Origin: Clavelina lepadiformis
Taxonomy: Eukaryota > Chordata > Ascidiacea > Aplousobranchia > Clavelinidae
Reading direction: 5' to 3'
NCBI RefSeq assembly: GCF_947623445.1
Contig: NC_135241.1
Span: 1,366,501-1,430,500, forward strand
Length of the DNA stretch: 64,000 nt
Shown: positions 5,746 through 64,000 of the stretch, in pieces
Numbering within the stretch: position 1 is the first letter of the stretch
How the letters are laid out: each line of letters starts with the position of its first letter
Notes under the pieces: model-generated
Told to the model about the DNA's origin: nothing
The model's input: the letters and a program-made list of their open reading frames with translations, nothing else
Database searches by the model: none
Made by a program: the position numbers and the translations under genes

Positions 5746-5847
5746 TCTTATCGGGCAGAAGATGAGACGAAAAAGTGACGTTTTAAGGGTAGTGACTAAC
5801 TTACTTGCAAGATTTTATTTTGCATCGCTCGGGTGTCCCCGTTACCA
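5746..5847 (-). repeat. Displaced 102-nt copy of a SEA-gene exon/intron boundary
   Basis: This block matches 7396-7497 over the same length with only a handful of differences. At 7396-7497 the sequence spans the last 14 or so codons of a SEA-domain exon, the donor CAA|GTAAGT and the start of the intron. Here it stands alone, without the rest of the exon, so it looks like a partial duplication. Confidence 0.75.
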
Positions 5848-6340: not shown

Positions 6341-6384
6341 CATCAGTACATCAGTACATCAGTACATCAGTACATCAGTACATG
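6341..6384. repeat. Microsatellite, (catcagta)n
   Basis: About five perfect copies of the 8-mer catcagta in direct tandem. No spacer structure and no coding potential. Confidence 0.9.
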
Positions 6385-6495
6385 CAGTTTATGTAGTTAA
6401 GAAATAGATTTAATGCAGTCCACGACACGCTTGTGCGACAATTTATTGAAAAACTGTGAATAATTGTCGATGGAAGATGAGGAAACTAAATTCAG

Positions 6496-37977: not shown

Positions 37978-40900
37978 TCATGAACTCTGCTGTTGAATGA
38001 TTGGGTCGAGCTGTTTTTTTACCAAGCGCTCATATTCTTCCACTTTCTCAGCTGTTACTTTTAAAGCTGCTTTAACGGCGTCAACTGGTATGTTCCTCAC
38101 CGGAGGGGAAGCAAGCGCACCCACAACTGCCCCGGTTGCTGCCCCTATACATGCGCTTTTAGCTACTACAACCGATGCGCCGGTTGCAGCCGTAGCTGCA
38201 GCCGCTGTTGCGGTTTTAGCCGCAGCCACAGCCGCTGTTGCGGTTTTAGCCGCAGCCACAGCCGCTGCTGCGGTTTCAGCCGCACCCACAGACGTAGCCA
38301 CAGCCGTTGCTGCGGTTTCAGCCGCAGCCGCAGCCGCAGCCGCAGCCGTTAATGCCTCTGATGTGGCTACAGTTGCAGCCGCAGTCTTTGATACGACTGC
38401 AACCGCAACCGCTGATCCGGCTACTACCCCACAAACAACACCGCCTGATACTGCGCCTATTATTGTGTATTTGCCGATTGTTTTCCATTGTTCCCAGTTT
38501 TCGTCTTTGGCGGCTTCATACAGTTTATTGGTATCAGGTATGAAGGTATTTCCAAATGAGTCCCGTTCATTTTCAGACAATTCATTGAGAAGTTTCATTG
38601 CCAGCCCGTTGTGTTTATTCTCTAATTCTTTAAACATTAGACAATTCATTTGTGGCCTTTTTCGACCAAACCACTGAAAATAAAATCAATTGAATTTGAC
38701 GAATCTCAGTCGTAGTGTAGAAAGTATCGTAATAAACAAAGCAAAAACGAAACAGAAAACACTGAAAAATTCATACTCACGCTTATTTCCTTTTTAAACT
38801 CCTCTTTGTACCTTTCTATCAGTTCAGAATACTTTTGTTGAGCGTGTGCCACCTTTGCCTGCAAACAAAGGACGTTTAAGGATGCCGATGGTCAGTGTTA
38901 CGGTGATAAATCGCATATATACTGAACATGTATAAGGCAATACTTGCTTTGACTTTCAGGTGAGTTTTGTTAGCTGGGACATAACGTGCGTAATATTTTA
39001 TTGCCAGTGCGATATTGGTTACCGCTTCCCTGGTTAGTTATATTTAAAACATGAATTTTCTTGCTTGTCATATGGTTTGTTATTTAGTTACTTGATTTCA
39101 GATAAAGTTGATTACATGTCACATAGTTGCATATTCATGTAGCCTAATTATTCTTAAATGAGGGTATTTATTGATTTTGAACGAGCAGAGTCGTAACTAA
39201 AGCATAGAATTCAAGTCGCAAGTCAAGTCAAGTCATTTACAATTTAAAACTTCAGCCAAGTCGAGTCATTTACATGTAGTGGCTAGTGTCAAGTAAAGTC
39301 TTTTGGTAAATAAGACTCGATGAGCTAAGTCAAGCCATAGAGCAGCGTGGTCCAACTACTTTTGACTATGGCATAGACTCCCATAGAGTATCTGAAACCG
39401 AGCCATGCTGAAAACAAAATTACGATTTCAATCCACAAAATCTTTTTACAAAGTTCGCTTCGTGCACTGAACGGTGCACATTCGTGGACAAAAAACTTCA
39501 TTTTAAGTCGCACTTTAGTGTAATGGGACAAAATTGTGAAATATTTGTTTTAACTATTTGCTCAATCTTAACCAAAATGAATCGATTCGACTCAAGTCGA
39601 GTCATTTGAAACACTGACTCGAGCCAAGTGAAGTTTTTATGTAATTTCTTTGAAAAGGGACTCAAGTAAAGTCACATCTTTTAAAAAGTTACTCGAGTCA
39701 TTACGACTCTGTGAACAAGTAACCATGGAACCGGCTTCATGACGTTTGCTTTATCAGCCAACGTAGACTTATTGTATTCGCAGGTTTGAATTTATCGAGC
39801 TACTCACTTTCTCTATTTTCAGTTTTTCGTCCATGGATCTGGCCAGTTTATTCCTACCAATCATAACAAGGTCAGGTGAGTTTGGCTTTGTATGTCCGTC
39901 AAATTTCTTCAGAGTTTCTTCTTTCAGTCGAAAGAATTTCTCATTAATATCCTTCTCTGTCACATCAGGTCTGGAGCCCTGCACAAACCCAGGAAAACAA
40001 AAGCCACAAAAGTGATTTAGCAATATAATAAAACGGTTATTTGCTTGAAAAAACTTAAATTTATGTTTATACGTTGATAGTGGTTTAATCACCTTTACGG
40101 AGTTTGTTAAGTTACTGATGAACCACTTTCTGCATTTCTGTGCAACGATCTCGATGTCAACCTATATGCAAGAAAATACCGCATTTTTAGTCTTACTCCA
40201 TAATTTTTTTTCTTTGCAAGAAACATATTTCGTAATTGAAAATAACAGTGACGTTTGCTAAAACATTTTACCTCAATAAAACTTTTGACTTTTCCAAGAA
40301 AATCCTCGTCTAGCGTCTTCGAATGACCTTCCACATATTGATAAAGATCTCTCCCTGTTGCCTGTTGGCCGCCAATCATTTTCAAGACTAGGCCTTGTGG
40401 TGAAAACATTTTCTCACATAACTCCTCAACTTGGCTTGAAAATTTTTCATCAACGTCTACAATTTGGAAATTGTTATAAACTTATATTACTCTGCATATA
40501 AACCAATACCGTATTCCATATTCAGCAAGTATAAGCTAATTATGATGTTTCATGCTGAAATATGCAAGACTAAATGACTAAGTATAACCTCTGTTTATTT
40601 CTAGTTCCTACTGTCACGGGATTATTTTTATGCACCCGTTTTATAGCAATCACAATGTACACTGTTTTTCTGAACCCCTTTTATCGATTGATTTAGTCGG
40701 ACGTGTTTTTTGTTGTGTCATTTTTATGTATGTTTGTTTTATTTCATTGTTGTTCGCATTAGTCATTTTTATGCCTGCTTACGTTCTGCCATATTTTACT
40801 TGTTTATATGTACATGTGTTTTATTCGATCACTAGTGACGTATCGTCTCGCTACCCCGAGCGCTTAATTAGTATTCAGAGTCCCACACTGATTCTCTCAT

Positions 40901-42669
40901 TAGGCCTACATGGAATTTGTTTTTGTGTGGTGTTACGCTCGTCTGAGAAGTGCTGGGCGAGTAGAAAGGTTTTAGTTACGTATGGGTTTTATAGCAGTAC
41001 GATGGATGTTTTTATTTGAAGAAAATGCAATTAAAAGTTATTAAAGCAAACAGAGCTAATTGACTAGCTGTGAAGCATGAAGTTCCTGGATGAGAAAAAG
41101 TTTGGTTACACTACAAACTTTCTATTTGATGTATATCATACTGTAGGCCACAATCTTACCTATTAATCTGCATTGGCTAGTATCGCTCATTCTTGCAACG
41201 TTGTTCCCTGGATAACTCAACACGCTGCAAGAAATGTTGTCAAACGTCGCTTTCATGTCTTCTTGCACTAACCGGTGCTCCTCCGCTCTTCCATGGTTGC
41301 AGGACGGAACCATGTAGTCGAGATATTTTCTTCCTCCATTGAAACCGTAAGTTTCACTTCGCGACCAATCTCGTACCAGAAACAGCAAATCCTACACAAT
41401 TCAATTCAAGTTTTTTCAACCCTATAATAAATCAGCGCGATACAACATCGGTCTGAAATTCTGCTTAATACCTGAAATGGCGATTTTCTTCCACCGCTTT
41501 CTTTTAATTCCTTTGCAAACTTTGTAAGATCCTGTATCGAAAAGGGTCAAAACTTTCAAATAGGGATACTTAGATTCTTGTTTCAACATTAGCTGGTATC
41601 ACTATAATGTATATAGCTGTACAAATGTTTGTTTTTTCCTTTTCTATACAACACTCTTGTAATTACCGTAGTTAGGTATACCCTGATATTGTATAGAGCT
41701 GCAAATGTTTGTATTACGGTTGCTCTTTTTCTACAACATTCACCAATAACTTACGTGAACCCATTGAAGATGCGCGGAATTGATTTCACTTTTCACGTTA
41801 AATATGACGCATGAGCTCATTAATAACGTCAACGCGGCTATCACAGTACCATCAGCCTTAGACGTGTGGAGGTCAAACAGGCCTTGTGTGTCCATAAGAA
41901 AAATAGCAACCTATATATCATGGATGACACGCTGTTAACTGTTTGTACTTGGTCAAAGGAGTAAAGAAATAATCAAATAACCGTGTTATTTACAGGAATA
42001 AAGGAATCTAGGTATAGGGATATTCTTTCATGTTAACCTAGTGGGGACACGGTGACAGCATATCTAAATATACTTGCATATGTTCTACCTACCTTCCCTT
42101 GAAGCCCACCAAGATCACAAATGATTGGTTTGTTCAACATGTCAATACCGGTTGTGACTGGCTCGAAACCATTTTTATAACTGAACCAACTGCGTAGAAG
42201 TTGTGTTTTCTAAAACAACAGATAGTCATACATAACAAATGAAAATCGCAGTTCAAATTAAATATTTAACTCGATGGCGTGTTGTCTGTTTAGCCTAAAG
42301 TTAGTTTACTTTCCGCTACAACATGACAATAAGTCCCTCGTTGATGGCCTACCTTTAAATGCCCCAGCAGGAGGTTGAGCAGAAAAGATTTCCCTGATCC
42401 TGTTGGTCCAACAATCGAGTCGACGACAACCGGTAGATCTTCTGCTTGAAGCAAGATCTTTTTTAATTGATCTGCATCAAGAATAAGAATAGATTTGCCT
42501 TTCTTTGAAACGTTCTTCGTGATCTTTACAACTTCAGCGTCATCAGCTTGACAAATAAAAAAGTTTTTTTCGTCGTTACTGACATGTAGTCTAATGTTCG
42601 AACGCAATAAAAACACATTTTTAAATACAACTTACGAAACTGGCAGACTTTAAAACGAGAATGAGACAT
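37978..42669 (-). CDS. Atlastin-like dynamin-family GTPase, copy A
   Basis: Eleven exons in consistent phase: 42669-42636, 42546-42353, 42209-42093, 41910-41755, 41531-41472, 41391-41160, 40456-40272, 40161-40093, 39978-39808, 38858-38781 and 38673-37978, giving 663 aa. The P-loop GPTGSGKS is at residues 58-65, DTQG at 122-125 and the atlastin/GBP-type RD motif (FLVRDW) at 194-195, followed by YGFNGG. Residues 265-432 match the helical middle domain. DTQG and the sequence around RD favour atlastin over GBP. Atlastins tether and fuse ER membranes. The C-terminus is unusual: hydrophobic, glycine-zipper-like stretches (AVSGGVVCGVVAGSAV and CIGAATGAVVGALA) flank about 90 Ala-rich residues, including 10-residue repeats such as AAVAAAKTAT. 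No break was found, so it is probably functional; its exact role is unknown. Confidence 0.9.
39186..39711. mobile_element. hAT-type MITE in intron 9 of copy A
   Basis: The ends are inverted repeats (cagagtcgtaa at 39186, reversed at 39711). The 8-bp flanks tgaacgag and tgaacaag differ at one base. The interior is rich in AAGTCAAGTC and GACTCGAG words. The same insertion, at the same site, is in copy B at 50,040-50,522, so it predates the A/B duplication. Confidence 0.8.
40612..41110. mobile_element. Solo LTR in an intron of copy A
   Basis: The intron between exons 6 and 7 of copy A contains 499 bp that are absent from the same place in copy B. The insert begins TGTCACGG, ends GGTTACA, and has the 4-bp direct repeat ctac on both sides (40608-40611 and 41111-41114). 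TG...CA ends and a 4-bp target duplication fit a solo LTR left after recombination of an LTR retroelement. It inserted after copies A and B separated. Confidence 0.8.
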
Positions 42670-43711
42670 CTTCGATCCAATGGAAAATCACGCTATATCT
42701 ACAATATAAGTATATACGTATCCAAATGTGACCTTTTTCTATTTATACATTGAAATCAGTTACATAAACATAAGAAATAAAAACATGCGAAGCAAATATA
42801 TTAAATCCTCAAATGTTTTTTTGCTCGATCCACATTTCACAAGATTCCAAACTAACTGCAGTCTGATGAGCGATCTGTTATCAATCAGTGATGAGTTGGC
42901 GTACAGTGGGTTAGTTAATCATTTAAATGTTTACTTTTCAAATGAAAGTTTTATTCTTAGTTATAGTTAGTTAGTTATTCTTAGTTTATTCTTAGTTAGT
43001 TAAAGTTTTTATTCTTGTCTAGTTTTACTTTCGCTTTTCTTGGCTTTAGTTCATTTTCTTAGTTATGTTACTTCTAAAAAACAAACCGTAAAACCTGTGT
43101 TTCTTAAAAATAAACTACATTGCATAGTAGCTGTCTTAGCTATGCCGTCATTGCATGAATGGTGAGGCTATTTTTGCAAGGTGTTGTGTATTCATATTAG
43201 GCCTATATATGCAGTTACACACTGCACCTCATTGCGTGGATGATCTTTATAGGCTACAGTATAAACATTAATTATATGTTTAGACTTTAGACTATAGTTG
43301 TGTAGACTATAAAGATCGATACAATGATGTCAATTTACGTTGTCCGCGGTTCACGTCAGCTCTTTATCAAGGTTATTTAGTTCGTTTAGTGTACAGCAAG
43401 CACCGTAAGGTTTTCTGTAATTGAAATTGCTTCAAGCCCGGAGAAATATTTCTGCTATTCGTCTTCAATTGAAAGCTTAAGTCAAGACTGACGTAGTCGT
43501 AATGTGCTCTTAATCTCAACTTTTGTTTATTGAAGCTAAAACACTGACCTATCGAAGCTTATTACTGATTATTTCTAAATAAAGCAAAGTTACTCATGAC
43601 CTTAAGCCATGTAAAAAGCAGGATTCTATCTGAGAAAATTTCAGAACGTTGGACGAATCACAAAACCAAATCGACCAAAACTACTGATCCTTATAACACC
43701 GGCCTCTGATG

Positions 43712-43840
43712 CTTATAAACGCGCGACACTGAAATGTCGAATTGTTGCTTGAACATTTATTCACCTTCTTTGCTTCCTCATTTAAGTTTCACTTCCTTCT
43801 TGTTTGACGTCACGAACAAAGCGATGAAACTTTAGTTTCG
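43712..43840 (-). promoter_or_regulatory. Copy A promoter: TATA box, CRE and IRF/ISRE-like sites
   Basis: Read on the minus strand, the order is a GAAA-repeat palindrome CGAAACTAAAGTTTC (43,826-43,840), a perfect CRE/ATF palindrome TGACGTCA (43,805-43,812), the ISRE-like GGAAGTGAAACTT (about 43,784-43,796), and TTTATAAG (about 43,712-43,719). All four recur in the same order and spacing upstream of copy C. IRF proteins bind GAAA repeats and ATF/CREB proteins bind TGACGTCA. The gap of about 1 kb to the ATG implies a 5'-UTR intron. Function is inferred from motifs and conservation. Confidence 0.6.
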
Positions 43841-44194
43841 CCCGTATATGTGACGTATTCAATGCCGTGTGTGGCAACTTCAAGTCCTCGACATAAATCA
43901 CTCGATGTGCATTATATCAGCGTATGCGGCGTATGCAATGCAATGTGCAACAATTTGAAGAATTTGACTCAGATCGATAGCTCACTGGGCAACATCAAAA
44001 TTATTCCTCAAATGAAAATGTGTTACCTAGACTAACTTTGGGATGCTAATTCCAAATCTGAAATCAGAATTGGTCTATCACGTCAGGATTTAAGGGTATG
44101 AAAATTCACGAAATTCTGATTTTGCATTGATTCGCACAATATTATAAGGTAGTACAGTATAAGGTATTGTGCAATTTTTTTCCCCAGCGGATCG

Positions 44195-45130
44195 TTGGTC
44201 TTCAATGCATATTGTGTACGGTTAATATTGACATTATTTTATAAATGTCATGTTCTACATGATATAGTTAATGCATCATTGAGTGTTCTTGGCGATGACT
44301 ATACGCACTTGGCTATGGCTATAGGGAGGAGTTATGTGGAGGGAGGGGTTATATGTGGAGACCTTAAAGTTGTGTCACTTTTACTCGGATTGCTGTTGGG
44401 TTACACAAAGCATATGTGTTTTCTCTGTTTGTGGGACAGTCGAGACGATGCAAACCACTATAACACAACCGAATGGCCAATGAGAACTAACTACATTGTT
44501 GGAAGATATAATGTTATAATGTTAAGTGGCAACCCCTAATTGATCCCAGCAAAGTGTACTTGCCACCATATCATATTAAACTCGGCCTGATCAAACAATT
44601 TGTGAAGGCAATGGATGTCAATGGAGATGGATTCCTACATATAAAAGAAAAGTTTGGTGCTATACTAAGTGAAGCTAAACTGAGTGCTGGAATATTTTAT
44701 TTGTTGGCCCCCAGATACGTGATTTGATCCGTGATCCAGTATTTCCATCCAAGCTTAATTCAATTGAATTGGAAGCCTGGAATGCGTTTGTACAGATTGT
44801 ACAAAATTTTCTTGGGAATTATAGGGCAGAAAATTACTCGCTTCTAGTCGACAATTTGCTGGAATAATCTCGCGAAATGAGCTGATGAATGTCACTTAAA
44901 CTGTATTTTCTTCGTTCACACATGGACCTTTTCCCACCAAACCTGGGTGATGTGAGCGACGAGCATGGTGAAAGATTTCACCAAGACACCTCTTTGATGG
45001 AATTGCGGTACAAAGGTCGATTTAACCCTAACATACTACTCCTGGTTTCTCCAGCGTGAAACTGACACTGAACATGCTCGAAATAGCAAGTGTATATTAA
45101 GCATTTTGAGGAGATACAATGCTATTTTTG
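44195..45130 (+). pseudogene. Decayed copy of a multicopy transposon-associated gene
   Basis: Blocks such as ICGDLKVVSLLLGL, CFLCLWDSRDDANHY and, later, GERFHQD match a high-copy protein family that I know from many invertebrate genomes and that behaves like a mobile-element gene. The family has no agreed name that I can give. This copy is a broken fossil with several breaks. I could not define terminal repeats. It lies upstream of copy A, inside the inverted duplication. Confidence 0.7.
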
Positions 45131-45651
45131 CTTGGTTATATCATCCTGGGTTGTGTTAAATTGTGCAATATGATAATGCTGTTATTTTCACTAGCAATTA
45201 TTGTGTTGATGACATCTAATGTTTTGTTCTGCACAGCCAAAGTTAGCTGAAATGACAATTAAGGGTTGTCATGTGCATATATCATATCTCAAAAACGTGG
45301 TGTGTTAGAAAAAAATCTAAGGCCAGATTTAGATTCAGCATGGCCACATTAGTCTAGATAAACTTGAAACGAGCAAGGAATAAAAAATAAGTTGAAAAAT
45401 GTTGCCCAGTGATATAGTCTCTGATCTTTGGACTTTAACTTTGGACTGGCTAATAGACAACAAACAAAGATTTTCGTTATTATTCATAACATTATTCTAA
45501 AAGCCTTTTGCTTTTTATAAAATGTATTTTGTTTGCTGCCTTTACTCGAGCGGCTTATTAATAAGATTTTATGAATTTGGTATTTTTCTCTTTATTGAAC
45601 AATTTCTTTATTGACATTCTTTAATTCTCTCTCCAGACGGTTTGTTCGCAA

Positions 45652-46625
45652 TAAGGGATCGTATCATTGGTTAATGAGTCAAAAATGTTTTTTTGTTTAA
45701 AACTTCTTATTCAACAACCAGTTTGAAATATTCAAGTTGATAAAAATAACAGACACGATACCTTGCTCGTTGCCAGTGTCATTGTTTTTCTAGTTGTGAA
45801 GGAAACAGATCACCCGGAAATAAAACAAAAATGAGGTAACAAAAGAGGCCCCCCAGGTAGTTTTAATGAGTAAATACTTTTAACATTGTTCAAAATTTCC
45901 TTTAAAATCTTACACAAAAGAAGCTCAGTTGTAAAGCATTCATGTGTGATTACTGGATACTATTGTTGCCAATCACCTGTGTATAGAGTTGTACAGAGAC
46001 TACAAGTCCACACTTGATTTTTGTCATTAATTGCGACAATAAAACATACAACATATAATCCTCATTTTAATTAATCTCCTGAAAAACATTACGTCATACA
46101 GTGATCTCTGAAATCTGTCCGCAATGATAAATCCTATTTATATAAAACTTATCAAAAGTTTTAAAACTTATTAGAAGTATCAAAACTTGGACATATGAAG
46201 TTCGAAAAAAAAACGCTGGTGTTTAAGATTTAATCGGTTTATTTTGATTGCGGAAAAAACTGCGGCGGCAGGAAAGACTCCAATGACGACTTATTCAAAA
46301 TCAGGCTTTGCAGCAGCTGACGTAGGAATAGTCGGTTCATTGGCGACTTACTAGTAACAATAGACTCCTATACGTGCAGAAGAAGAAATGTTCTATAAAA
46401 ATGTCTAATATTAACTTTCAGTGTAAAAATCCTAAAAGAACTTTTTATTATTTCTGTATCGCTAACAATTAATTTTAATAAACGTAACTTATCTACGTAA
46501 ACTTCACTCAACCTACTTAATTGTATATTGTCGGTATTTTGCTACATTCTAATATCTTACATGGTACATTTGTGCTTACGTTTATATTTTCGGTACATTT
46601 TACAACTTTCCAAGAGAGCAATGAC
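45652..46625. repeat. Right arm of the 0.9-kb inverted duplication
   Basis: Reverse complement of 36,855-37,757, collinear across the arm with small gaps. It stops where the gag/ORF1-like fragment at 46,628 begins. Confidence 0.85.
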
Positions 46626-46627
46626 AT

Positions 46628-46872
46628 TTATCCGTTGTTTTTTTTATATGGACGAGTGTTCTGCCAATTACGCGATACCACTCCCATGTGGATGCTATAA
46701 AGTTCTTGGAAGTTTTTCCAAAACGGCGCTAGAGGGCCTTAAGTAAAAAGGGCAGTAATATGACAAAAGTGAATTTACAATAGTAGTGTAGCAAGCGTGC
46801 GGACGTTATACCGCAGGCTGGTATTGTGCCAGAGCAGCAAAAGAAGCTCTAAAAGGGAAATATGTTTTGAAA
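46628..46872 (+). pseudogene. 5' fragment of a gag/ORF1-like fossil, inverted partner
   Basis: About 245 bp match the first part of the fossil at 47,481-48,735 but on the opposite strand. Only the 5' region is present. Treated as a broken retroelement-type fossil. Confidence 0.6.
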
Positions 46873-47480
46873 AAGCCGACGTGCAACATTTTTGAACTGG
46901 CAATATCTTTTGGACTTGTCAACTGCTTATTTTTAGTAGCAAGTTTTACTATCTATCGGACCAAGTGTAACGACCGAAAACTATCAATAGAGCTCTCTGA
47001 ATAAGTGGTTAAGGATACTGAAAAATCCGAGAGGTGTTCAGCAAAAAGCAAAAATAAATTAAGCTTTCATTATAGTAAATGAGGGCTTTGCCTGCCATGC
47101 TTTTGTTTTTCATTTTTTAATTGTACTTTGCCATTTATTTTATACTACTGCTTATTTCCTATTTGTTGTTGTCGTGGAAAAAAAGAAGTTACAATGTTTT
47201 TTTATGTGTAGCAAATATTCAATAACCAAAACTCACTTAAAAAGAAAACTTAACCGAAGCTGCACATTAATACTAATGTTCTGACACCAACAGTAGACGA
47301 TGGGCTATTTTTCACACTATACTCCTTGAGAACAAAAATAGCAAAATTTTATGTAACATTTGAATATTTAGAACTAAATCAGATAACAAGAAACATGAAA
47401 AAATGCTTCAAACGGTAACAAACACTTGTTATCGTTGTTTAGAAAGGTGAGGAAGAGATGAAAGAGTTGACTTGTGATAC

Positions 47481-48735: not shown

Positions 48736-48939
48736 GTCGTTCACGTTCAGTGAAAGGTTTATTGATATGTGCTGTACAACACAATTTCCAAATTAAATGA
48801 ATAGCAAAACGAATCGATCCATGTAAAACACGTTGTTATGTATTTGAGAACAAACGCCAAAGCACGGAATATACAAGACTGGCCACAGACGAGACGAAAA
48901 TATTTTCGCACAAAAATTTAAATCATAAGAACGAAACAA

Positions 48940-51900
48940 TTAATAGTTTGATGAACTCTGCTGATGGCTTTCATTTCGGCTAAACTCGTTTTCTACAAAG
49001 TGCGCATATTGTTTCACTTTCTTAGCTGTTACTTTTGCAACTGCTTCAACAGCGGCAGCTTCTATGTTCCTCGCCAGAGGGGACACAAGCGCACCCACAG
49101 CTGCCACGGTTGCTGCCCCTATACATGCGCTTTTAGCTACGGCAACCGCTGATCCGGCTGCAACCGTTGATCCGGCTGCAGCCGCAACCGTTGATCCGGC
49201 TGCAGCGGCAACCGTTGATCCGGCTGCAGCGACAACCGTTGATCCGGCTGCAGCTGCAACCGCTATACCGGCAACTACCACACTAACAACACCGCCTGAT
49301 ACTGCGACTATTATTATTGTGTATTGACCGATTGTTTTCCATTGATCCCAGTTCTCGTCTTTGGCGGCTTCATACAGTTGATTGGTATCAGTTCTGAAAG
49401 TATTTCGATATGAGCTCCATTTGTTGTCAGACAGTTCATGGAGAAATTTCAATGCCAGTGCGTTGTGTTTATTCTCTAATTCTTTGAAGATTAGACAATT
49501 CATTTGTGGCCTTTTTCGACCAAACCACTGAAAATAAAATCAATTGAATTTACCGTATCTCAGTCGTAGAGTAGAAAGTATCGTAATAAACAAAGCAAAA
49601 ACGAAACAGAAAACACTGAAAAATTCATACTCACACTTATTGCCTTTTTAAACTCCTCTTTGTACCTTTCTATCAGTTCAGAATACTTTTGTTGAGCGTG
49701 TGCCACCTTTGCCTGTAAACAAAGGACGTTTAAGGATGCCGATGGTCAGTGGTACGGTGATAAATCGCATATACTGTATACTGCACAATTTTATGGCATT
49801 TCTCGCTTTGACTTTCAGGTGAATTTTATTAGCTGGGACATAACATGGGTAATATTTTATTGCCGGTGCAATATTGGTTACCGCTTCCCTGGTTAGTTAT
49901 AATTAAAACATGAATTTGCTTGCTTGTCATATGGTTTGTTATTTAGTTACTTGATTTCAGATAAAGTTGATTACATGCCACATAGTTGCATATTCATGTA
50001 ATTATTCTTAAATAAGGATATTTATTGATTTTGAACGAGCAGAGTCGTAACTAAAGCATAGAATTCAAGTCGCAAGTCAAGTCAAGTCAAGTCATTTACA
50101 ATTTAAAACTTAAGCCAAGTCGAGTCATTTAGATGTAGTGGCTAGTGTCAAGTAAAGTCTTTTGGTAAATAAGACTCGATGAGCTAAGTCAAGCCATAGG
50201 GCAGCGTGGTCCAACTACTTTTGACTATGGCATAGACTAGAGTATCTGAAACCGAGCCATGCTGAAAACAAAATTACGATTTCAATCCACAAAATCTTTT
50301 TACAAAATTCGCTTCGTTTTTCTGAACGGTGTAATGGGACAAAATTGTGAAATATTTGTTTTAACTATTTGCTCAATCTTAACCAAAATGAATCGATTCG
50401 ACTCAAGTCGAGTCTTTTAAAACACTGACTCGAGCCAAGTGAAGTTTTTATGTAATTTCTTTGAAAAGGGACTCAAGTAATGTCAAATCTTTTAAAAAAT
50501 TACTCGAGTCATTACGACTCTGTGAACAGGTAACCATGGAACACGCTTCATGACGTTTGCTTTATCAGCCAACGTAGACTTATTTTATTCATAATTTTGA
50601 ATTTATCGAGCTACTCACTTTCTCTATTTTCAGTTTTTCGTCCATGGATCTGGCCAGTTTATTCCTACCAAGCATAACAAGGTCAGGTGAGTTTGGCTTT
50701 GAATGTTCGTCAAATTTCTTCAGAGTTTCTTCTTTCAATCGAAAGTATTTCTTCTTGATATCCTTCTCTCTCACATCAGGTCTGGAGTCCTGCACAAACC
50801 CAGGAAAACAAAAGTCACAAACGTGATTTAGTTGTCCAATAGTACAGTACAGTATGATAAAACCGTTATTTGCTTGAAAAAATTAAGTTTCTGTTTACGT
50901 TGATAATTGGTTAATTACCTTTATGAAGGTTGTAAAGACTTTGAAGAAACCCTTTCTGCATTTCTGTGCAACGATCTCGATGTTAACCTATATGCAAGAA
51001 AATACCGCATTTTTGGTCTTACTACATATTTACATTCTATTTCGTAATTGAAACTAACAGTGATTTTTGCTAAAACGTTTTACCTCAATAAAAATTTTCA
51101 CTTTTCCAAGAAAATCCTTGTCCAGCGTCTTCGAATGGACTTCCACATATTGATAAAGATCTCTCCCCGTTGCCTGCTGGCCGTCAATCATTTTCAAGAC
51201 TGGGTCTTGCGGTGAAACAATTTTCTCACATAACTCTTCAACTTGGCTTGAAAATTTTTCATCAACGTCTACAATTTAGTAATTGTTATGAAGTTATATT
51301 ACTCAGCATATAAACCAATCCCGTATTCCATATTCAGCAAGTATAAGCTAATTATGATGTTTCATGCTGAAATATACAAGACTAAATGACTAAGCATAAC
51401 CTCTGTTTATTTCTAGTTCCTACAAACTTTCTATTTGATGTATATCTTATACTGTAGGACATAATGTTACCTATTAATCTGCATTCGCTAGTATCGCTCA
51501 TTCTTGCAACGCTGTTCCCTGGATAACTCAACACGCTGCAAGAAATGTTGTCAAACGTCGCTTTCATGTCTTCTTGCACTAACCGGTGCTCCTCCGATCT
51601 CCCATGGTTGTAGGACGGAACCATGTAGTCGGGATATTTTCTTCCTCCATTAAAACCGTAAGTGTCACTTCGCGTCCAGTCTCGTATCAGAAACAGCAAA
51701 TCCTATCCAAATCAATTCAAGTTTTTTCAACCCTATAATAATAATCATCGCGACAGAGCATCGGTCTGAAATTCTGTTTTATACCTGAAATGGCGATTTT
51801 CTTCCACCGCTTTCTTTTAATTCCTTTGCAAACTTGGTAAATTCCTGTATCGAAAAGGGTCAAAACTTTCAAATAGAGATACTTAGATTCTTGTTTCAAT

Positions 51901-52865
51901 ATTAGCTTGTATCAATACTATAATGTATATAGCTGTACAAGTGTTTGTTTTTCCTTTTCTATACAACACTCATAAACTTGTAATTACCGTAGTTACATAT
52001 ACCCTGATATTGTATAGAGCTGCAAATGTTTGTATTTCGGTTGCTCTTTTTCTACAAAATTCACCAATAACTTACGTGAACCCATTGAAGATGCGTGGAA
52101 TTGATTTCACTTTTCACGTTAAATATGACGCATGAGCTCATTAATAACGTCAACGCAGCTATCACAGTACCATCAGCCTTAGACGTGTGGAGGTCAAACA
52201 GGCCTTGTGTGTCCATAAGAAAAATAGCCACCTATATATCATGGATGACACGTCGTTAACTGTTTGTACTTGGTCAAAGGAGTAAAAAAATATCAAATAA
52301 CCGTCTTATATATAGGAATAAAGGAATCTAGGTATAGGGATATTGTTTCACTTTAAACTAGTGTGGACACGGTGACAGCATATCTAAAAAATACTTGCAT
52401 ATGTTCGACCTACCTTCCCTTGAAGCCCACCAAGATCGCAAATGATTGGTTTGTTCAACATGTCAATACCGGCTGTGACTGGCTCGAAACCATTTTGATA
52501 ACTGAACCAACTGCGTAGAAGTTCTGTTTTCTAAAACAACAGATAGTCATACAAAAAAATGAAAATCGCAGTTTAAATTAAAACTTTAACTCGATGGTGT
52601 GTTGTCTGTTTAGCCTAAAGTTAGTCTACTTTCTGCTACAACATAACAATGAGTCCGTCGTCGATGGCCTACCTTTAAATGCCCCAGCAGGAGGTTGAGC
52701 AGAAAAGATTTCCGAGATCCTGTAGGTCCAGCAATCGAGTAGACGGCAACTGGTAGATCTTCTGCTTGAAGCAAGATCTTTTTATTTGATTCGCATCAAG
52801 AATAAGAATGGATTTGCCTTCTTTTGAAACGTTCTTCGTGATCTTTACAACTTCAGCGTCATCAG
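48940..52865 (-). pseudogene. Atlastin-like GTPase, copy B (decayed)
   Basis: Ten of the eleven copy A exons are present in the same order: 52865-52673, 52530-52414, 52231-52076, 51844-51785, 51702-51471, 51268-51084, 50987-50919, 50789-50619, 49712-49635 and 49527-48940. Exon 1 and the shared promoter are missing; similarity to copies A and C stops near 52,910. Exon 2 is 193 nt instead of 194, which shifts the frame before the P-loop, and the P-loop reads GPTGSRKS, losing the second glycine. The remaining exons keep length and frame. The last exon has about four AAAAGSTV-type 8-residue repeats in place of copy A's 10-residue repeats. Without promoter, start and P-loop it is unlikely to make an active GTPase. 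Decay seems recent. Confidence 0.85.
50040..50522. mobile_element. hAT-type MITE in copy B, orthologous to the one in copy A
   Basis: Same ends, orientation and insertion site as 39,186-39,711, with flanks tgaacgag and tgaacagg. It is shorter than the copy A version by a few internal deletions. Confidence 0.8.
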
Positions 52866-52909
52866 CTTGACAAATAATTTTTTTTTTGTCATTACTGACA
52901 TTTAGTGTA

Positions 52910-54754: not shown

Positions 54755-57700
54755 TCAAAAATAGGCTGCAAGATGTAGGCTAAGTTGAACTAAGTCTAGT
54801 TGGTTTAGTTGTTTGTAAAATCTTATTTTAGCAAAAGAATAGAATTCCATTTCAATCTTCAGCTTTTCTCGTAGCAAGTTCTTTTCTGTTCGTCTTGTCC
54901 TGTCTCTTTTTAAAAGAAAACGTTCAATTTCAATACTTAATAAAACTGTTTGAACAGCCTACTCATTTTTGGTTACAGAACAATAAATGTGTTGAAGCAC
55001 CTGTAGCAAAATCTTCCACTTTCACGTCGCTGTTGAAATACCTGTAAAAAGGCAAGAAACTCCTTCAATATAGGTTTGGAAACTGCTGCGCTAATGGTTT
55101 AATGTGAAATCAAATTCGGATGATATACTTCATTAAAGCCATCGTTTTGATAATTCTTAACCTGGGCAGCAGTGCATTGAGAAGTTTCTTTGTGTGTTGT
55201 AAGTCTTCAGTCAAGCCAACGATGGCGTAGCGTTTTGATAAATTCAACTTTGCTTTCTGCAGAGCATAGGTGGTATAGTCTCTGAGCAAAATAGTGCTAT
55301 TAAATGTCGATAAAATTGAGTGAAACAAAGAGCACTTTTTCGTCACCTGCACTTCTTCTCATGACCACAGAAATATGGCAGTTGGTTGAGTACATTAGCT
55401 TTGACGCATGACTTCAAATTCTTTGCAACACATTCTTCCAGCGTCTAAAGGTAAACGAACGACTGAGATTATCTATAAAACTTTACTGAACCTCCTGGTT
55501 GAAGACTATACTTGCAAATATAAAATGTTTCTTTTTAAGACAAGAAAAACAAGTAAATTATATTTATTCAATATACTAATGCCCGAATAAGTAATACTAT
55601 TCTATTAAATAGTTTTAAGTCATAATGAGCTAATAACTATATCCTGCATAACTGTATCTCATGTGTAATATAATTACTGAGGTGAAATTGGGGCGGCATG
55701 TTTTCCTTTCGTCGCATAGAGCGACATGAAAACCCGAACTTGTTTGTTGCCCAACAATAACGTCCACGGCAGTCATCTTATCAACAACACGCCCAACATA
55801 AAGCGAACGGTGCCATACAGCAAACAGCTCCACATCATAGTAATGGGCTAAATTACCATGTGCAGTGTTACATTGCTCTTTGAAGAAGGCCAATTCCTTG
55901 AGGGTTTTCCGTGATCAGCTTCTAACCCGAACCGTTTGTAGTTATAGGTCGATATAAAATGGTCAACTGGTTCTCTTATGACGCTGATGTACATTGGCCA
56001 ATCGCTGATTATTTGGAATGAGAAAATTTAAGATTTTTTAATGTAATTTGCAAAAAAAAGGTAAAGGTTTAGAAAAATTTTTAAAATTATGAATAATACA
56101 GAATACAAGGAAAGCACAAAACACATCTAATGCACACAAATTATGCGAACATATAGGCCTATGCAGTACAGTATATAGCTTAAATGTATGTAAAAACAGT
56201 TTTTTATGACATTCATACTGCTATATTAACGCGTAGATTGCCAAATTTGTTAAAAACTGTCAATTTAGAGTTCTGAGTAGTATACTTTATTTTACCTCTC
56301 AAATTCCAAAAAATGCAAGTGTCGTATATAAATTGTAGGGCGTGGCAGACCGCTAATATTCCGCATCAATTGAAGCTGAATTGTAAGACAAGAAATCAAA
56401 AACATTCTCATGCTGCTTACACTAAAGTTGCTTCTGCAATCCTGACGTAACAAGCAGCGTAATGGCATCACAGTACCTTGTAAAATTCTTAAAATACAAT
56501 TTCTAAAGAAAGTTTTTTGAAAGTGGCTTAAACCAGGGCTTCTCAAACTATGGGTCGCGACCCCAAATGGGGTCGCGTAATGAAATTTTGGGGTCGTAAT
56601 GAAATAGTTTAATTTAGTCTAGTGCCGGTAGGTTGTAGTCTTGCCATGATGTCAATCTGAAGTGGCAAAGTTTTTCAAAAAATCACATGGAAATGACTGC
56701 ATTTTAGGGCCGTTATGTAAGCGGTCCTTAATGACTGTACAACCAGCCCGGCCTGTGCACATGGAAAAAGGCTATTAAATATTTTTATTGTCATGTTAAT
56801 AGGCTATCCATTTCCAAGAAATGTGTTTTTTAAGGATTGACCGCAACCGTTGGTGTGAAATGTCGAACGATAAAATATAACCAACCGTAACAATTGATGC
56901 ATTGTTACGCTATGATTGCTGTATCGTGCTGACCAAAAGTAACCTTACCGCTCGCATTACGATTTCAGAGTAGCCTAGTACTGTAACTAGTTTCTGAAGG
57001 AACCTATGGATTCGATTTTGTGATTCGTGAATTGGGTGCATTTGTATTGTTTTGTTATAGTCTTAATTAGGGTCGGATTATTCGTTTGTTATTTCTTGTT
57101 TTCATTCGTTGCTTTATTTCATGTTCCATTGTTTTTGTTTTCATGTTCCTTTCGATATTGTTTTGCTACTTCGGTAATTGAATTATAAAGCCAAAAATAA
57201 CCGAAACAAATTGGGCCTGTTTTGTTTAGCGGTAATTAGCTGGTTAACCGGTTAACTAAATGGAAATATCTGGATATATCCGTTATCCAGATAGTAAAAA
57301 TTATTGATATCCTAATTAACCCTAGTCTTAATAGACAAAAGAACTAACCCCGTTTTAATGTCATTAACGTGAATGTCCCCATAATGGGGTCGCATAGAAA
57401 TATCTTTTTCAAAATGGGGTCGCAGAACAAAAAAGTTTGAGAAGCCCTGGCTTAAACAATATAACGAAATCTATGAACCTTACCTGTTCAGCTTTGTCTT
57501 CCAGGTAGTGGCTCAGCTTTGGGCGGTATACCCATAAGACATAATACTTTAAAAGGCTTTTTGTTTACGTATTATTGACGTCATAAAGGAACTTGCACAT
57601 TTGGGTACGCGGTTGTAGATTACAATTGACTGGTTCATAATTCTAGTTGTGACTGGATAGGCCCGGTTTAGTTCTTCTGATGTCATTTCCATTTCATCTT

Positions 57701-58529
57701 TATTTTGCTTGGTTGCGTGCATTGTTGCTGCAAAATTGAGTTCAGCCAAGCGGTTATCGAACTTAGCAAAAGGCACGTTTGATATTTGTTTAATCGGTTA
57801 TGTGGGAACTGTAGCGAAGGATATTTACACAGGCCCAGCTTTTGTCGATCCGCAAACAAACATTAAAATGAAACAACGAAGTGTGACGAAACCATAGCCG
57901 CCAACCTAAATTCTTGAATATGGTATAACTAAGCCTTATTGAAACTGGTATTATAGGTCCTCATATTCATGTAGTCCTGCGTGATATTAATAACATGTTT
58001 ATTGTTTATGCACATATCTTGTATTTACTTGAGTGAAAGCTAATATTAATGTGCGTAGTTTGACATAATGGGACTTATTAAACATGATTAACATTACACA
58101 GAGTATGTATATATCTTTGACTTGTTGGTGAGGTCCTCCATCTTACTCGAAAGACTGAATGCGGTCCTAACTGGAGTTTTACTTTTGATAGCAGGGATCT
58201 GCTTTAAATTAATTAGACAGACGGTTGACTTGCATAAGAAATAGCAAGCAACGGACAGAACGCCTTTTACGCACAAAGTTACAAACTGATTATTCTGATA
58301 AGATGTCATTTTGACACCACGCGGTAAATGAAGTAGGGTGATACTGTAAACTGTAAAGTGTAATTAATTAAGCAATGCATACCCAAAGGTTAATTTTACC
58401 TTGCTTAGCCGCCTTCTTTGATGTGAACAGGGTTGTGTCAGTCCACCAGCTATTGTAAACACATCCAAACATTGCAAGTACAATGCACATCGTTGAAATT
58501 AATATCAACATTTGAGTGAATCGAGTCAT
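54755..58529 (-). CDS. Uronyl 2-O-sulfotransferase-like enzyme (one frame slip)
   Basis: Eight exons are recognisable: 58529-58400, 57727-57484, 56375-56296, 56004-55857, 55444-55347, 55281-55162, 55041-55001 and 54903-54755. The start encodes a type II membrane anchor (MLILISTMCIVLAMFGCVY). IVIYNRVPKCASSF is the 5'-phosphosulfate-binding loop, YIRHLHFLEF holds the catalytic-type His, and ISVIREPVDHFISTYNYKRFG is split by us as the 3'-phosphate site (Arg and Ser). LPYFCGHEKKC and AIVGLTEDL follow. These enzymes sulfate uronic acids of heparan or dermatan sulfate in the Golgi. RH.HFL favours UST over HS2ST. Exon 2 is one base short for its phase, between RKQKAF and the later LEDKAEQ, so the model of about 336 aa is frameshifted once. 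This may be an assembly error, an allele or a young pseudogene. All splice sites look intact. Confidence 0.85.
56534..57449. mobile_element. Non-autonomous hAT element, 916 bp
   Basis: The inverted ends cagggcttctcaaact (56,534-56,549 and reversed at the right end) are perfect. The 8-bp target duplication gcttaaac at 56,526-56,533 and 57,450-57,457 is also perfect. Subterminal ggggtcgc words repeat inside both ends. There is no transposase frame. It lies in the intron between sulfotransferase exons 2 and 3. The intact ends suggest recent insertion. Confidence 0.93.
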
Positions 58530-59880
58530 TTTCCCGGTAGGTTTAGGATTAGTTGCTCTGACAAAATCCTACAACGTGCCACAATCAGAAGCTTACCTAC
58601 ATTTTCGAGCCAAAATCTATTGAACAAAACGACATTGAACAACAAGAATTCATAAAAATTGTAAAATCGTTTTTTCTAACTCATTAATTCTGGAAATCTG
58701 ACTTCAGTATAACTGGACGTGTGGGTTGCCCAGAGCTCTATCTGGTCTAAACTATAAGTTAACTAAAATCATTTTTCAGAAGGCTTTCTTTATTAGAATT
58801 GTACTAATATAAAACCGAGCAACGAATCATTAGCTTTGGCAAAGGCGCCTATAAGGGCAGGCAGCTTTACACAACTGGACTTCCCTGGACACTATGGTAA
58901 GCCATACTGGACTGGACATATTGAAGTAGGACAAAAACACGCAATAAATAGGAGAGCTGTGAGTTGGGTTCGTCGTTGTCCGAAGTGGACGGAAACGATT
59001 TAGTCTATGTAGGCTGGTGTAGGAAAACTGGTAGGTGGTGTTTTCGTCCACTTTGTACAACAATGGTCCCAAACCACCATTCCTCTCTTTGTTAACGCGT
59101 AATCGCCGGCAATTAACTATAGCAAGCCATACTGGAGAAAAGTGAATATCGTTACGAGTAAGGTATTGGTTTGGCCAAGTGTGACGGACGAGCAATCACC
59201 GTTAACAAGAGTGAAATGATGGTTAGGATCGTAGTTATTAACAATCAAAGAGTGTTTTAACTCTTAATAATTGGTCCCATGTATAAGATACAACATCTTC
59301 CTGTAGATAATAATAATCCTTAAAATGGTTTTCAAAAATTTATACGAAAATTTTTCTGACAACAACAATTAAGCGGTGTAGGCCTATTTACCTAATTACC
59401 TATAATCATAGCAACTCTTCTTTTACAAACATTTACAAATTACATTAAGCAATTAAATATTAAGATATTTTGTTATTTAAAATAATAACATAAATAATAG
59501 TTTATATAAAAACAACGTTAGGTTAACGACAAACCTAGCAGCATGAAAAAGACCATTAAACACAGACCACGCACAATTAACATACACAGTAGTATTGAAA
59601 TAGTGACTATATAGTATTCTAAAAATGTACAAACAAGTTATCATTCTCGTGGTGCTTCCCGTCACGTCGTCGCTCTCAATATTCCGGAATATGTGTTGAC
59701 TAAGGAGAAAAATACCAAACTCAAAAAAGCTTACCAACTGGTAGCTCTAGTAAAGGCAGCAAACAGCCGACATTTTCAAAAAAGCAAAAGGTTTACAGAG
59801 CAATGTTATAATAACGAGAATGTTTGGTTTGTGTCGATTATAAAGTCCAAATCTAAAGATCAGGGTCTATTTATCTAAGT
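58530..59880. other. Intergenic stretch between sulfotransferase and copy C
   Basis: I see no supportable exon. Two short blocks around 58,890 and 59,125 share the word gccatactgga. From about 59,880 rightwards the sequence is the inverted counterpart of the copy A upstream region. Confidence 0.45.
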
Positions 59881-61067
59881 CAAAATCCTCAAATTGTTGC
59901 ACATTGCATTGCATACGCCGCATACGCTGATCTAATGCACATCGAGTGATTTATGTCGAGGACTTGTAGTTGCCACACACAGCAATGCATACGTCACATG
60001 TACGGGCGAAACCAAAGTTTCATCTCTTTGTTCGTGACGTCAGACAAGAAGGAAGTGAAACTTAAATGAGGAAGCAAAGAAGGTGAATAAATGTTCAAGC
60101 AACAATTCGACATTTCAGTGTCGCGCGTTTATAAGCATCAGAGGCCGGTGTTATAAGGAAGAGTAGTTTTGGTCGCTTTGGTGTTGTGTCACTCTAACGT
60201 TCTGAAATTTTCTCAGAAAGATTCATGCTTTTTTACATGACCTAATGCCAAGCGTAACTTTGCTTTATTTAGAAGTAATCTGTAATAAATAAACAATAAT
60301 TTCTCCGAGCTTGAAGCAATTTTAGTTACAGAAAACCTTAAGGCGCTTGCTGTACTTTTTGGTTAGGAACTAAACAACTTTGATAAGGAGCTGACGTGAA
60401 CTGCGGACAATGTAAAATGACATCATTGTATCGATCTTTATATTCTGCACAACTATAGTTTAAACATATAATCAATGTTTATACTGTAGCCTATAAAGAT
60501 CATCCATGCAATGAGGTACAGTGTGTAACTGTATATAGGCCTAACATGAATGCACAACACCATGCAAAAATAGCGTCACCATTCATGCAATGAAGACATA
60601 ACTAAGACAGCTACTATGCAATGTAGGTTATTTTAGTAGACACAGGTTTGTACGGATTTTTTTTAGAACTAACGTGAAAATGAAAAAACAAGAAAATGAA
60701 CTAAAGCCAAGAAAAGCGGAAGTAAAACTAGACAAGAATAAAAACTTTAACTAAGAATAAACTAAGAATAACTGACAAGCTAACTTTAACTGAGAATAAA
60801 ACTTTCATTTGAAAAGGAAAAATTTAAATGAGTAACTAACCCACTGTACGCCAACTCACCACTGATTGATAACACATCGTTCATCAGTCTGCTGTTAGTC
60901 TGGAATCTTGTGGAATGTAGATCGAGCAATACTACATTTGAGGATTTAACATATTTTCTTCGCATGTAATTATTTAACTGATTTCAATGCATAAATAGAA
61001 AAAGATCACATTTGGATACGTGTATACTTGTATTGTAAATATAGCATAATTTGTCATTGGATCGAAG
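59880..61067 (+). repeat. Upstream duplication shared with copy A (inverted)
   Basis: This matches about 42,670-43,990 in reverse, including aatgcacatcgagtgattta-like and gcatacgccgcatacgctga-like blocks. The whole 5' region of copies A and C therefore duplicated with the gene. Confidence 0.85.
60004..60135 (+). promoter_or_regulatory. Copy C promoter: IRF/ISRE-like sites, CRE and TATA box
   Basis: GGGCGAAACCAAAGTTTCATC (split here as GGGCGAAACC and AAAGTTTCATC) is at about 60,004-60,024, TGACGTCA at 60,035-60,042, GGAAGTGAAACTT at 60,051-60,063 and TTTATAAG at 60,128-60,135. Order and spacing match copy A. IRF-type GAAA pairs close to an ATF site resemble vertebrate antiviral enhancers. Transcription would start near 60,160, with an intron in the 5' UTR before the ATG at 61,068. 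Confidence 0.6.
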
Positions 61068-64000
61068 ATGTCTCATTCTCGCTTTAAAGTCTGCCAGTTT
61101 CGTAAGTTGTATTTAAAAATGTGTTTTTACTGCGTTCAAATATTAGATTACATGTCAGTAATGACAAAAAAATGTTTTGTATTTGTCAAGCTGATGACGC
61201 TGAAGTTGTAAAGATCACGAAGAATTTTTCAAAAGAAGGCAAATCCGTTCTTATTCTTGATACGGATCAATTAAACAACATCTTGCTTCAAGCAGAAAAT
61301 CTACCAGTTGCCATCTACTCGATTGTTGGACCTACAGGATCAGGGAAATCTTTTCTGCTCAACCTTCTGCTGGGGCATTTAAAGGTAGGCTATCAACGAG
61401 GGACTTATTGTTATGTTGTAGCGGAAAATAGACTAAATTTAGGCTAAACAGACAACAAACCATCAAGTTAAAGTTTTAATTTAAACTGCAATTTTCATTT
61501 TTTTTTCTATATCTAACTACCTATTGCATGACTATCTGTTGTTTTAGAAAACAGAACTTCTACGCAGTTGGTTCAGTTATGATAATGGTGTCCAGCCAGT
61601 CACAGCCGGTATTGATATGTTGAACAAACCAATCATTTGTGATCTTGGTGGGCTTCAAGGGAAGGTAGGTAGAACATTTGCAAGTATTTTTAGATATGCT
61701 GTCACCGTGTCCCCACTAGGTTAAAGCGAAACAATATCCTTATACCTATATTCCTGTATTCCCATATATAAAACGGTTATTTGATTATTTCTTTACTCGT
61801 TTGACCAAGTACAAACAGTTAACGGCGTGTCATCCATGACATATAGGTTGCTATTTTTCTTATGGACACACAAGGCCTGTTTGACCTCCACACGTCTGAG
61901 GCTGATGGTACTGTGATAGCCGCGTTGACGTTATTAATGAGCTCATGCGTCATATTTAACGTGAAAAGTGAAATCAATTCCACGCATCTTCAATGGGTTC
62001 ACGTAAGTTATTGGTGAATGTTGTAGAAAAAGAGCAACCGTAATGCAAACATTTGCAGCTCTATAAAATATCAGGATATGCGTAACTACGGTAATTACAA
62101 GTTTATGAGTGTTGTATAGAAAAGGAAAAACAAACATTTGTACAGCTATATACATTATTGTGTTATAAACTAACATTGAAACAAGAATCTAAGTATCCCT
62201 ATTTGAAAGTTTTGACCCTTTTCGATACAGAAATTTACCAAGTTTGCAAAGGAATTAAAAGAAAGCGGTGGAAGAAAATCGCCATTTCAGGTATAAAACA
62301 AAATTTCAGACCAATGTTCTGTCGCGCTGATTATTATAGGGTTGAAAAAACTTGAATTGATTTGTGTAGGAATTGCTGTTTCTGATACGAGATTGGTTGC
62401 GAAGTGACAAGTACGGTTTCAATGGAGGAAGAAAATATCTCGATTACTTGATTCCTTCCTGCAACTATGGGCGAGCGGAGGAGCACCGTTTAGTGCAAGA
62501 AGACACGAAAGCGACGTTTGACAACATTTCTTGCAGCGTAATGCGTTATCCAGGGAACAACGTTGCAAGAATGAGCGATACTAGCAAATGCAGATTAAAA
62601 GGTAACATTGTGGAAAAAACAAAAGTTATACTTAGCGATTTAGTCTTGTTTATTTCAGCACGAAACATCACAACTAGCTTAAACTTGCTGAATTTGGCGT
62701 ACGGGAATGGCTTATATGCGGAATATTTTAACTTCATAACAATTTCCACATTGTAGACGTTGGTGAAAACTTTTCAAGCCAAGTTGAAGAGATATGTGAG
62801 AAAATTTTTTCACCACAAGGCCTAGTCTTAAAAATGATTGACGGCCAACAGACAACGGGAAGAGATCTTTATCAATATGTGGAAGTCCATTCGAAGACGC
62901 TGGACGAGGATTTTCTTGGAAAAGTGAAAAGTTTTATTGAGGTAAAATGTTTTAGCAAACGTCAGTGTTATTTTTAATTACGAAATATGTTTATTGCAAA
63001 GATTGTAAATATGGAGTAAGACCAAAAATGCGGTATTTTCTTGTACATAGCTTGAAATCGAGATCGTTGTTCAGAAATACCAAGAGTGGTTCATCAGTAA
63101 CTTTACAAACTCCGTAAAGGTAATTAAACAACTATCAACGTGTAAATATTAATTTAAGTTTTTTCAAGCAAATAACGGTTTTATTATATTACTAAATCAC
63201 TTTTGTGGCTTTTTGTTTTCCTGGGTTTGTGCAGGGCTCCAGACCTGATGTGACAGAGAAGGATATTAATGAGAAATTCTTTCGACTGAAAGAAGAAACT
63301 CTGAAGAAATTTGACGAACATTCAAAGCCAAACTCACCTGACCTTATTATGCTTGGTAAGAATAAACTGTCCACATCTATGGACGAAAAACTGAAAATAA
63401 AGAAAGTAAGTAGCTCGATAAATTCAAACTTAAGAATAAAATAGGTCTAAACGTTACGAAATATTTTTCTTACAAAGAATGTAAATATGGAGTAAGACCA
63501 AATATGCGGTATTTTCTTGCACATAGGTTGAAATCGAGATCGTTGTTCAGAAATGCCAAGAGTGGTTCATCAGTAACTTTACAAACTCCGTAAAGGTAAT
63601 TAAACAACTATCAACGTGTAAATATTAATTTAAGTTTTTTCAAGCAAATAACGGTTTTATTATATTGCTAAATCACTTTTGTGGCTTTTGTTTTTTTACT
63701 GGGTTTGTGCAGGGCTCCAGACCTGATGTGACAGAGAAGGATATTAATGAGAAATTCTTTCGACTGAAAGAAGAAACTCTGACGAAATTTGACGAACATT
63801 CAAAGCCAAACTCACCTGACCTTATTATGCTTGGTAGGAATAAACTGTCCACATCTATGGACGAAAAACTGAAAATAAAGAAAGTAAGTAGCTCGATAAA
63901 TTCAAACCTAAGAATAAAATAAGTCTAAACGTTACGAAATATTTTTCTTACAAAGAATGTAAATATGGAGTAAGACCAAATATGCGGTATTTTCTTGCAC
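61068..64000 (+). CDS. Atlastin-like GTPase, copy C (cut by window edge)
   Basis: Exons are 61068-61101, 61191-61384, 61548-61664, 61847-62002, 62231-62290, 62370-62601, 62757-62941, 63051-63119, 63235-63405, then second copies 63527-63595 and 63713-63883. All phases agree and all shared exon lengths equal copy A. It keeps GPTGSGKS, MDTQGLFD and FLIRDW. Exons 8 and 9 (69 and 171 nt, both phase 0) occur twice, and a third unit starts at about 63,929, so the helical middle domain gains 80 residues per unit. The opposite strand orientation to A and B shows an inversion. The C-terminal part lies beyond the window. No break seen, so it is probably functional unless the duplication disrupts folding. 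Confidence 0.9.
62978..64000 (+). repeat. Tandem 477-bp duplication of exons 8-9 of copy C
   Basis: Units start at about 62,978, 63,454 and 63,932, with a period of 476-478 bp. Each complete unit holds one 69-nt and one 171-nt exon plus their introns. Units differ by only a few bases, for example a Tyr/Cys change in exon 8 and a Lys/Thr change in exon 9. The last unit is cut by the window edge, so the copy number is unknown. Confidence 0.92.

Follow-up and report, generated by a model that had tools for sequence, protein, structure and literature searches.

A cluster of divergent atlastin-like GTPase genes in the ascidian Clavelina lepadiformis, one of them with a five-fold repeated exon pair

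The three genes and the repeated exon pair of gene C

The window analysed here, a 64,000-nucleotide stretch of the Clavelina lepadiformis genome (contig NC_135241.1, hereafter C2; C2:1366501-1430500 in a host assembly of 209 Mb and 95 contigs), carries three related atlastin-type GTPase genes, A, B and C, as an earlier note made from the letters alone had claimed. Gene A (37978..42669, minus strand) is intact, with 11 exons (42669-42636, 42546-42353, 42209-42093, 41910-41755, 41531-41472, 41391-41160, 40456-40272, 40161-40093, 39978-39808, 38858-38781 and 38673-37978) that join with GT/AG at every junction into one open frame of 663 amino acids; the model was first built by spliced alignment to the genome's atlastin, with a script of our own, and then worked out one exon at a time. 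Gene B (~48940..52899, minus strand) is a decayed copy. Its exons 2-11 can be recognised, each exon or piece being 82-99% identical to A in nucleotides, exon 1 gave no BLAST match to B, and the P-loop exon has a one-base frameshift and reads GSRKS where A has GSGKS; the last exon is still open. Gene C lies on the plus strand, inverted relative to A and B, and is intact, with 19 exons and 975 amino acids in the spliced model from fetched locus L009. It starts at 61068 and runs on past the window's end at 64000 to C2:1433533 (window position 67033), so that its full extent, C2:1427568-1433533, ends 3 kb beyond the window. The pseudogenisation and the inversion described in the earlier note are thus both seen here, while the 11-exon architecture said to be common to all three copies holds for A and, as far as exons 2-11 can be recognised, for B, but not for C. 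The P-loop, DTQG and RDW motifs are present, as is the switch-I Thr at what we take to be its position, and Pfam PF02263 is matched at 135 bits by A and 127 bits by C; the shared G motifs of the note therefore stand, except that G1 is altered, with Gly in place of the P-loop Arg in A and C. An inverted repeat of three pieces (143-300 bases, 92-94% alike; 36952-37717 and 45689-46424) flanks gene A and may mark a duplicated or inverted segment. Past the window the cluster goes on with a fourth gene, D (in fetched locus L010 from ~1.6 kb), and, on the opposite strand, with a P-loop exon that has decayed.

Exons 1-7 of C (61068-61101, 61191-61384, 61548-61664, 61847-62002, 62231-62290, 62370-62601 and 62757-62941) are followed by the feature that gives this gene its 19 exons, namely five tandem copies of an exon 8+9 pair that repeats every 476-478 bases, against a single copy in A and in B. 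Units 1 and 2 (63051..63405 and 63527..63883, plus strand) lie within the window, where they account for a 478-base tandem repeat at 62978-64000, and units 3-5 lie beyond it, reaching position 65315. All ten unit exons are open and have splice sites, their junctions are all phase 0, and the introns of the array are 96-100% alike. The units differ from one another by 1-6 non-synonymous and 0-2 synonymous changes, and with so few differences the array is young. In a genome search exon 9 had seven matches, one in A, one in B and five in C, and no other direct repeat of 150-4000-base spacing was present in the 28 loci scanned (L009, L010 and L012-L037). Several Pfam matches to the repeats of C other than PF02263 rose above their cut-offs, but none of these matches appears in A, which has one unit, and they were judged to be chance matches amplified by five near-identical units.

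The single 80-amino-acid unit of A (exons 8+9, 39808..40161, minus strand) aligns with residues 353-415 of ATL1, which we take to lie in the three-helix bundle. In shuffle tests it scored z 3.6 against the bundle of the genome's own atlastin, 5.3 against that of paralogue L034 and only 1.5 against that of L030, and the L034 unit scored 12.6 against the own atlastin. These comparisons make it most likely that the unit multiplied in C corresponds to the lever of atlastin, which crosses over during fusion (mechanism in PMC10954664). Exons 10-11 had been suspected from the exon layout to form a second bundle homologous to exons 8-9; the shuffle test did not show it (z -0.1).

The P-loop and the C-terminal exon

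The P-loop of A, GPTGSGKS (residues 58-65; 42386..42409, minus strand), has Gly61 at the position of the human ATL1 P-loop Arg. Aligned to PDB atlastin-1 chains, A and C both read GPTGSGKS where the wild-type chains read GAFRKGKS, and the Arg concerned is presumably Arg77 in ATL1. The residue is kept in 19 of the 21 P-loops recognised among 25 paralogue models, that of neighbouring gene D included, although several loci are close copies of each other and the 19 are therefore not independent observations. L017 has Asn there and L033 has Gln, and in the remaining four models no P-loop could be recognised. According to a study of RNF112, this residue is an arginine finger common to ATL1 and GBP1, is indispensable for hydrolysis in frog RNF112, and is not strictly conserved among RNF112s (PMC12012479). 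With the Arg missing, poor GTP hydrolysis is the prediction for both A and C.

The last exon of A opens with 69 amino acids that are probably helical (38467..38673, minus strand, as are all its parts). These are followed by a hydrophobic Gly-rich segment (TIIGAVSGG...AVVS; 38389..38466; hydropathy up to 1.98 over 19 residues) that is conserved in B and C, an Ala-rich repeat insertion with periods of 30 and 42 bases found by Tandem Repeats Finder and in the translation (38176..38385), a second hydrophobic segment rich in Gly and Ala (38101..38181, from translation and hydropathy), and a C-terminal tail (37981..38100). The two hydrophobic segments, both Gly/Ala-rich, stand ~70 residues apart. 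Hydrophobic moments are 0.44-0.46 for the tail of A, up to 0.45 for that of the own atlastin and only up to 0.34 for that of C. In C the Ala repeat consists of octads AGSTVAAA, and the four codon differences among seven regular octads are all synonymous. The chains of A, B and C end in QQQSS, SSSNY and SSSNH, with no CaaX end. This agrees with the description in the earlier note of hydrophobic Gly-rich stretches separated by an Ala-rich repeat, an arrangement present in the last exon of all three copies. At E <= 0.01 in a whole-genome search, the first 94 amino acids of the last exon of A matched A, B and C only.

The note had further held that this C-terminus is unusual and takes the place of the membrane anchor of known atlastins, and here the evidence is divided. 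The stricter version of a filter for hydropathy and Ala/Gly content was passed by none of 217 open reading frames in window positions 1-37000 and by 3 of 153 in 37001-64000, namely the last exon of A, its antisense, and the last exon of B. In 252 kb of fetched loci it was passed by 6 of 1471, of which two are dinucleotide repeats and four are terminal exons (C, L016, L032 and L037); D and L015 failed it. When up to 3.5 kb downstream of 23 loci was scanned, a less strict form of the filter was passed by L015, L016 and L032, and D fell slightly below it. In D, a late exon (L010:5172-5687, on C2 beyond the window) encodes a hydrophobic segment rich in Gly, Ala and Thr, and this exon matches only itself in the genome. 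The Gly-rich terminal exon of L037, a locus of the C4 cluster, matches seven C4 places including itself, one of them with a stop, and that of L016, from the other clade, has 11 other matches, of which C2:459223 extends well into the hydrophobic part and the others end at or near its start. The terminal exons of the C4 paralogues L032 and L037 are 41% identical over 100 amino acids, and this identity marks them as coding sequence rather than noise of composition. A Gly-rich hydrophobic C-terminus is therefore common to part of a wider family and does not belong to A-C alone, whereas no genes other than A-C were seen to carry the Ala-rich insertion that parts the two hydrophobic segments. The insertion is what is special to A-C and the repeated bundle what is special to C; what stands out most in the cluster is that the bundle of C is present five times and that A and C have lost the P-loop Arg, the odd C-terminus being partly common to the large family.

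One way to account for such exons is that the last exon, the array or both stand outside the main mRNA, A-C being shorter soluble proteins and splicing picking the number of units. With every unit boundary in phase 0, any number of units could indeed be skipped without loss of frame, and there is a precedent for soluble forms: in one report, the antiviral atlastin paralogue BmAtlastin-n of the silkworm and its sisters Atlastin3 and Atlastin4 are described as being without transmembrane segments (PMC4926086). These are divergent paralogues beside true atlastins, set beside A-C by description only, and differ in that A-C have hydrophobic C-terminal segments. We consider this account very improbable, as the last exon has an open frame in all three genes, its acceptor is identical in A and C, and Gly-rich terminal exons are conserved between the two C4 paralogues.

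A more serious alternative, which we nevertheless regard as unlikely, is that A-C are on the way to being lost through birth-and-death turnover, with catalysis already gone in A and C and with the array and the Ala repeats produced by unselected slippage. B is already broken, the P-loop Arg is missing in A and C, and the Ala stretch is a minisatellite. Between A and C, the ratio of non-synonymous to synonymous differences per site (pN/pS) is 0.51 for exons 2-7 (41.5/737 against 22.5/202 sites; Fisher p 0.017), and the bundle units, at 1.37-1.56, do not differ from the neutral expectation (p 0.54-0.75). The GTPase head thus looks constrained, and the arm is without detectable constraint on so few sites. 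The constraint on exons 2-7 is difficult to reconcile with loss, as are the full open frames of A (11 exons) and C (19) with GT/AG at each junction, the synonymous nature of all four codon differences in the octads of C, and a last exon that has stayed open in all three copies.

The wider family and its relatives

Besides one canonical atlastin, the genome has at least ~43 atlastin-like loci, A-D included, of which some are probably pseudogenes. The figure comes from a hand count of genome matches covering the G3 exon (profile ~73-127), which takes in A-D and leaves out the canonical gene; it gave 42 loci, to which one on C1 was added later, and for so large a family such counts are lower bounds. 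The canonical atlastin, on C7, is a 562-amino-acid open frame with a hydrophobic hairpin and a tail. For the tree, of 28 rows, fetched loci were used, with L020 and L021 omitted as near-identical to L019; weak exons of the automatic paralogue models, mainly far 5' and 3' pieces, were discarded and only the part from G domain to bundle was taken. The C7 gene groups with human ATL1 (100/100), and A, B and C form a clade of their own (100/100) that D joins at 99/98 and loci of C4, C5 and C9 at 100/99. One-to-one orthology of A-C with atlastin was rejected, since that place is taken by the C7 gene and A-C fall elsewhere. The tree thereby supports the duplicating and decaying atlastin-like family of the earlier note; of the tree with atlastins, GBPs and RNF112 that the note had proposed, the atlastin part is supplied here, GBP and RNF112 not being among the 28 rows.

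In a phmmer search of the PDB, A scored 143 bits with atlastin-1, 77 with RNF112 (the chain named LOC432253 protein, which we take to be frog RNF112) and 34 with GBP5, GBP chains in general scoring 26-34. Atlastins (ATL1 and ATL3, Drosophila atlastin) are thus the best PDB matches, and they resemble A-C in G-domain motifs, in the bundle after the G domain and in the order of hydrophobic segments and tail. They differ in that A and C are without the P-loop Arg, that the bundle of C is repeated five times, that the Gly/Ala-rich segments of A-C are split by the Ala repeat, and that A-C are multi-exon genes in an expanded family alongside a true atlastin. RNF112 has an atlastin-like G domain, a three-helix middle domain, a C-terminal hydrophobic region and, according to the study cited above, an Arg not strictly kept across species; unlike it, A and C had no RING domain in the Pfam scan. 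GBPs belong to the same superfamily, their genes are likewise expanded, clustered and decaying, and the presumably longer arm of C would be a further likeness. The GBP motif is DTEG, whereas A-C carry DTQG. Membership of A-C in the GBPs was rejected in view of the low scores of GBP chains, of the absence of any GBP_C domain match in A or C, and of the missing CaaX end.

The atlastin-like order of head, bundle, hydrophobic segments and, in A, an amphipathic tail would also suit housekeeping paralogues that shape the endoplasmic reticulum (ER), that is, tissue-specific atlastins with altered arms and anchors and no role in defence. We think this rather unlikely, given that a family of some 43 divergent loci, with its tandem clusters and its decay, does not resemble ER atlastins, that a canonical atlastin is already present, and that the P-loop Arg is missing.

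Several observations were made in the fetched loci along the way. D keeps the P-loop Arg; downstream of it an open reading frame (L010 7211-7513) resembles, by eye, a retrotransposon integrase, and the decayed P-loop exon mentioned above, atlastin-like and interrupted by an in-frame stop, faces D at L010:8920-9189 on the minus strand. L019-L021 (C3:2585, 2596 and 2606 kb) are three tandem atlastin-like copies with identical G-domain models and DTEG instead of DTQG. L017 (C2 near 2.38 Mb) has a protein kinase domain (PF07714, 110 bits; minus strand, oriented 5729-6493) ~3 kb downstream of its divergent atlastin-like GTPase and on the same strand, as a neighbour or a fused gene. No paper on an atlastin-like family in tunicates was among the matches listed in the open-licence literature, which is weak evidence of absence.

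Possible action, upstream DNA and other elements of the window

We tentatively favour, at a little short of an even chance, the reading that A-C are membrane-anchored atlastin-like GTPases acting as GTP-gated tethers or coats, most likely in defence or stress. The Gly/Ala-rich tail would anchor A-C in the membrane, and GTP binding would dimerise the G domains and make the bundles cross over, as they do in atlastin. With the P-loop Arg gone, hydrolysis would be slow, and instead of cycling as a fusogen the protein would act as a long-lived tether or coat gated by GTP. In C the repeated bundle would lengthen the arm between head and membrane, which could therefore bridge a wider gap or build a thicker coat. 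The most likely use would be in cell-autonomous defence or stress, in the manner of GBPs and fed by ongoing duplication, inversion and decay. Defence is the part with the least support; it is suggested by the precedent of BmAtlastin-n and by the question, raised in a 2022 review, whether atlastins assumed the defence functions of GBPs in invertebrates that have none (PMC9005921). A chordate with one true atlastin and some 43 divergent atlastin-like loci makes that question testable, and C provides a natural experiment in lever-arm length, with one bundle against five in near-identical genes. A bolder version, which we hold to be improbable, is that Clavelina built a GBP-like defence class out of atlastin, with many Gly-zipper anchors, a countable lever module, and catalysis given up in A-C to yield GTP-locked tethers or coats.

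A number of points weigh against the reading of A-C as tethers or coats in defence. One study describes GBP1-R48A as GTPase-deficient and without dimerisation (PMC11746146), so that A and C, having lost the Arg, might be inactive enzymes instead of stable tethers. The tail of C is less amphipathic than that of A, and the bundle units look neutral. A Gly-rich terminal exon was not seen in most of the 23 loci scanned, nor in the C9 locus (followed for ~8 kb) or the C5 or C6 loci; the limited reach of the scans, or exons that they missed, may account for part of these absences. The structure prediction of the C-terminal region proposed in the earlier note was carried out on the last exon, and the AlphaFold model was uninformative, with a predicted local distance difference test score (pLDDT) of 41 that supports nothing. 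A-C are known here from genomic sequence, from which the use of their exons in mRNA is predicted, nothing in this analysis ties the cluster to infection, and the possibility that A-C are dying copies counts against a use in defence.

The promoter motifs of A and C are likewise marginal. In 12 motif tests upstream of the two genes, IRF-like motifs were in excess upstream of A (8 against 2.4; 1 of 300 shuffles), as were a motif like the heat-shock element (HSE) upstream of A (3 of 300) and one like the interferon-stimulated response element (ISRE) upstream of C (5 of 300). Gamma-activated site (GAS) and NF-kB motifs were not enriched upstream of A and C. Since the upstream DNA of A is related to that of C, the start site is not fixed and GAS and NF-kB motifs are not enriched, we do not use these motifs as support, and the inducible-looking promoters of the earlier note come down to weak motif counts.

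Elsewhere in the window, open reading frames on the minus strand at 19783-23198 resemble, by eye, the reverse transcriptase, RNase H and integrase of a Ty3/gypsy-type element. By the same kind of inspection, one at 331-801 on the plus strand is like the C-terminus of a hAT-type transposase, and one at 1761-2432 on the minus strand is like a von Willebrand factor A domain.

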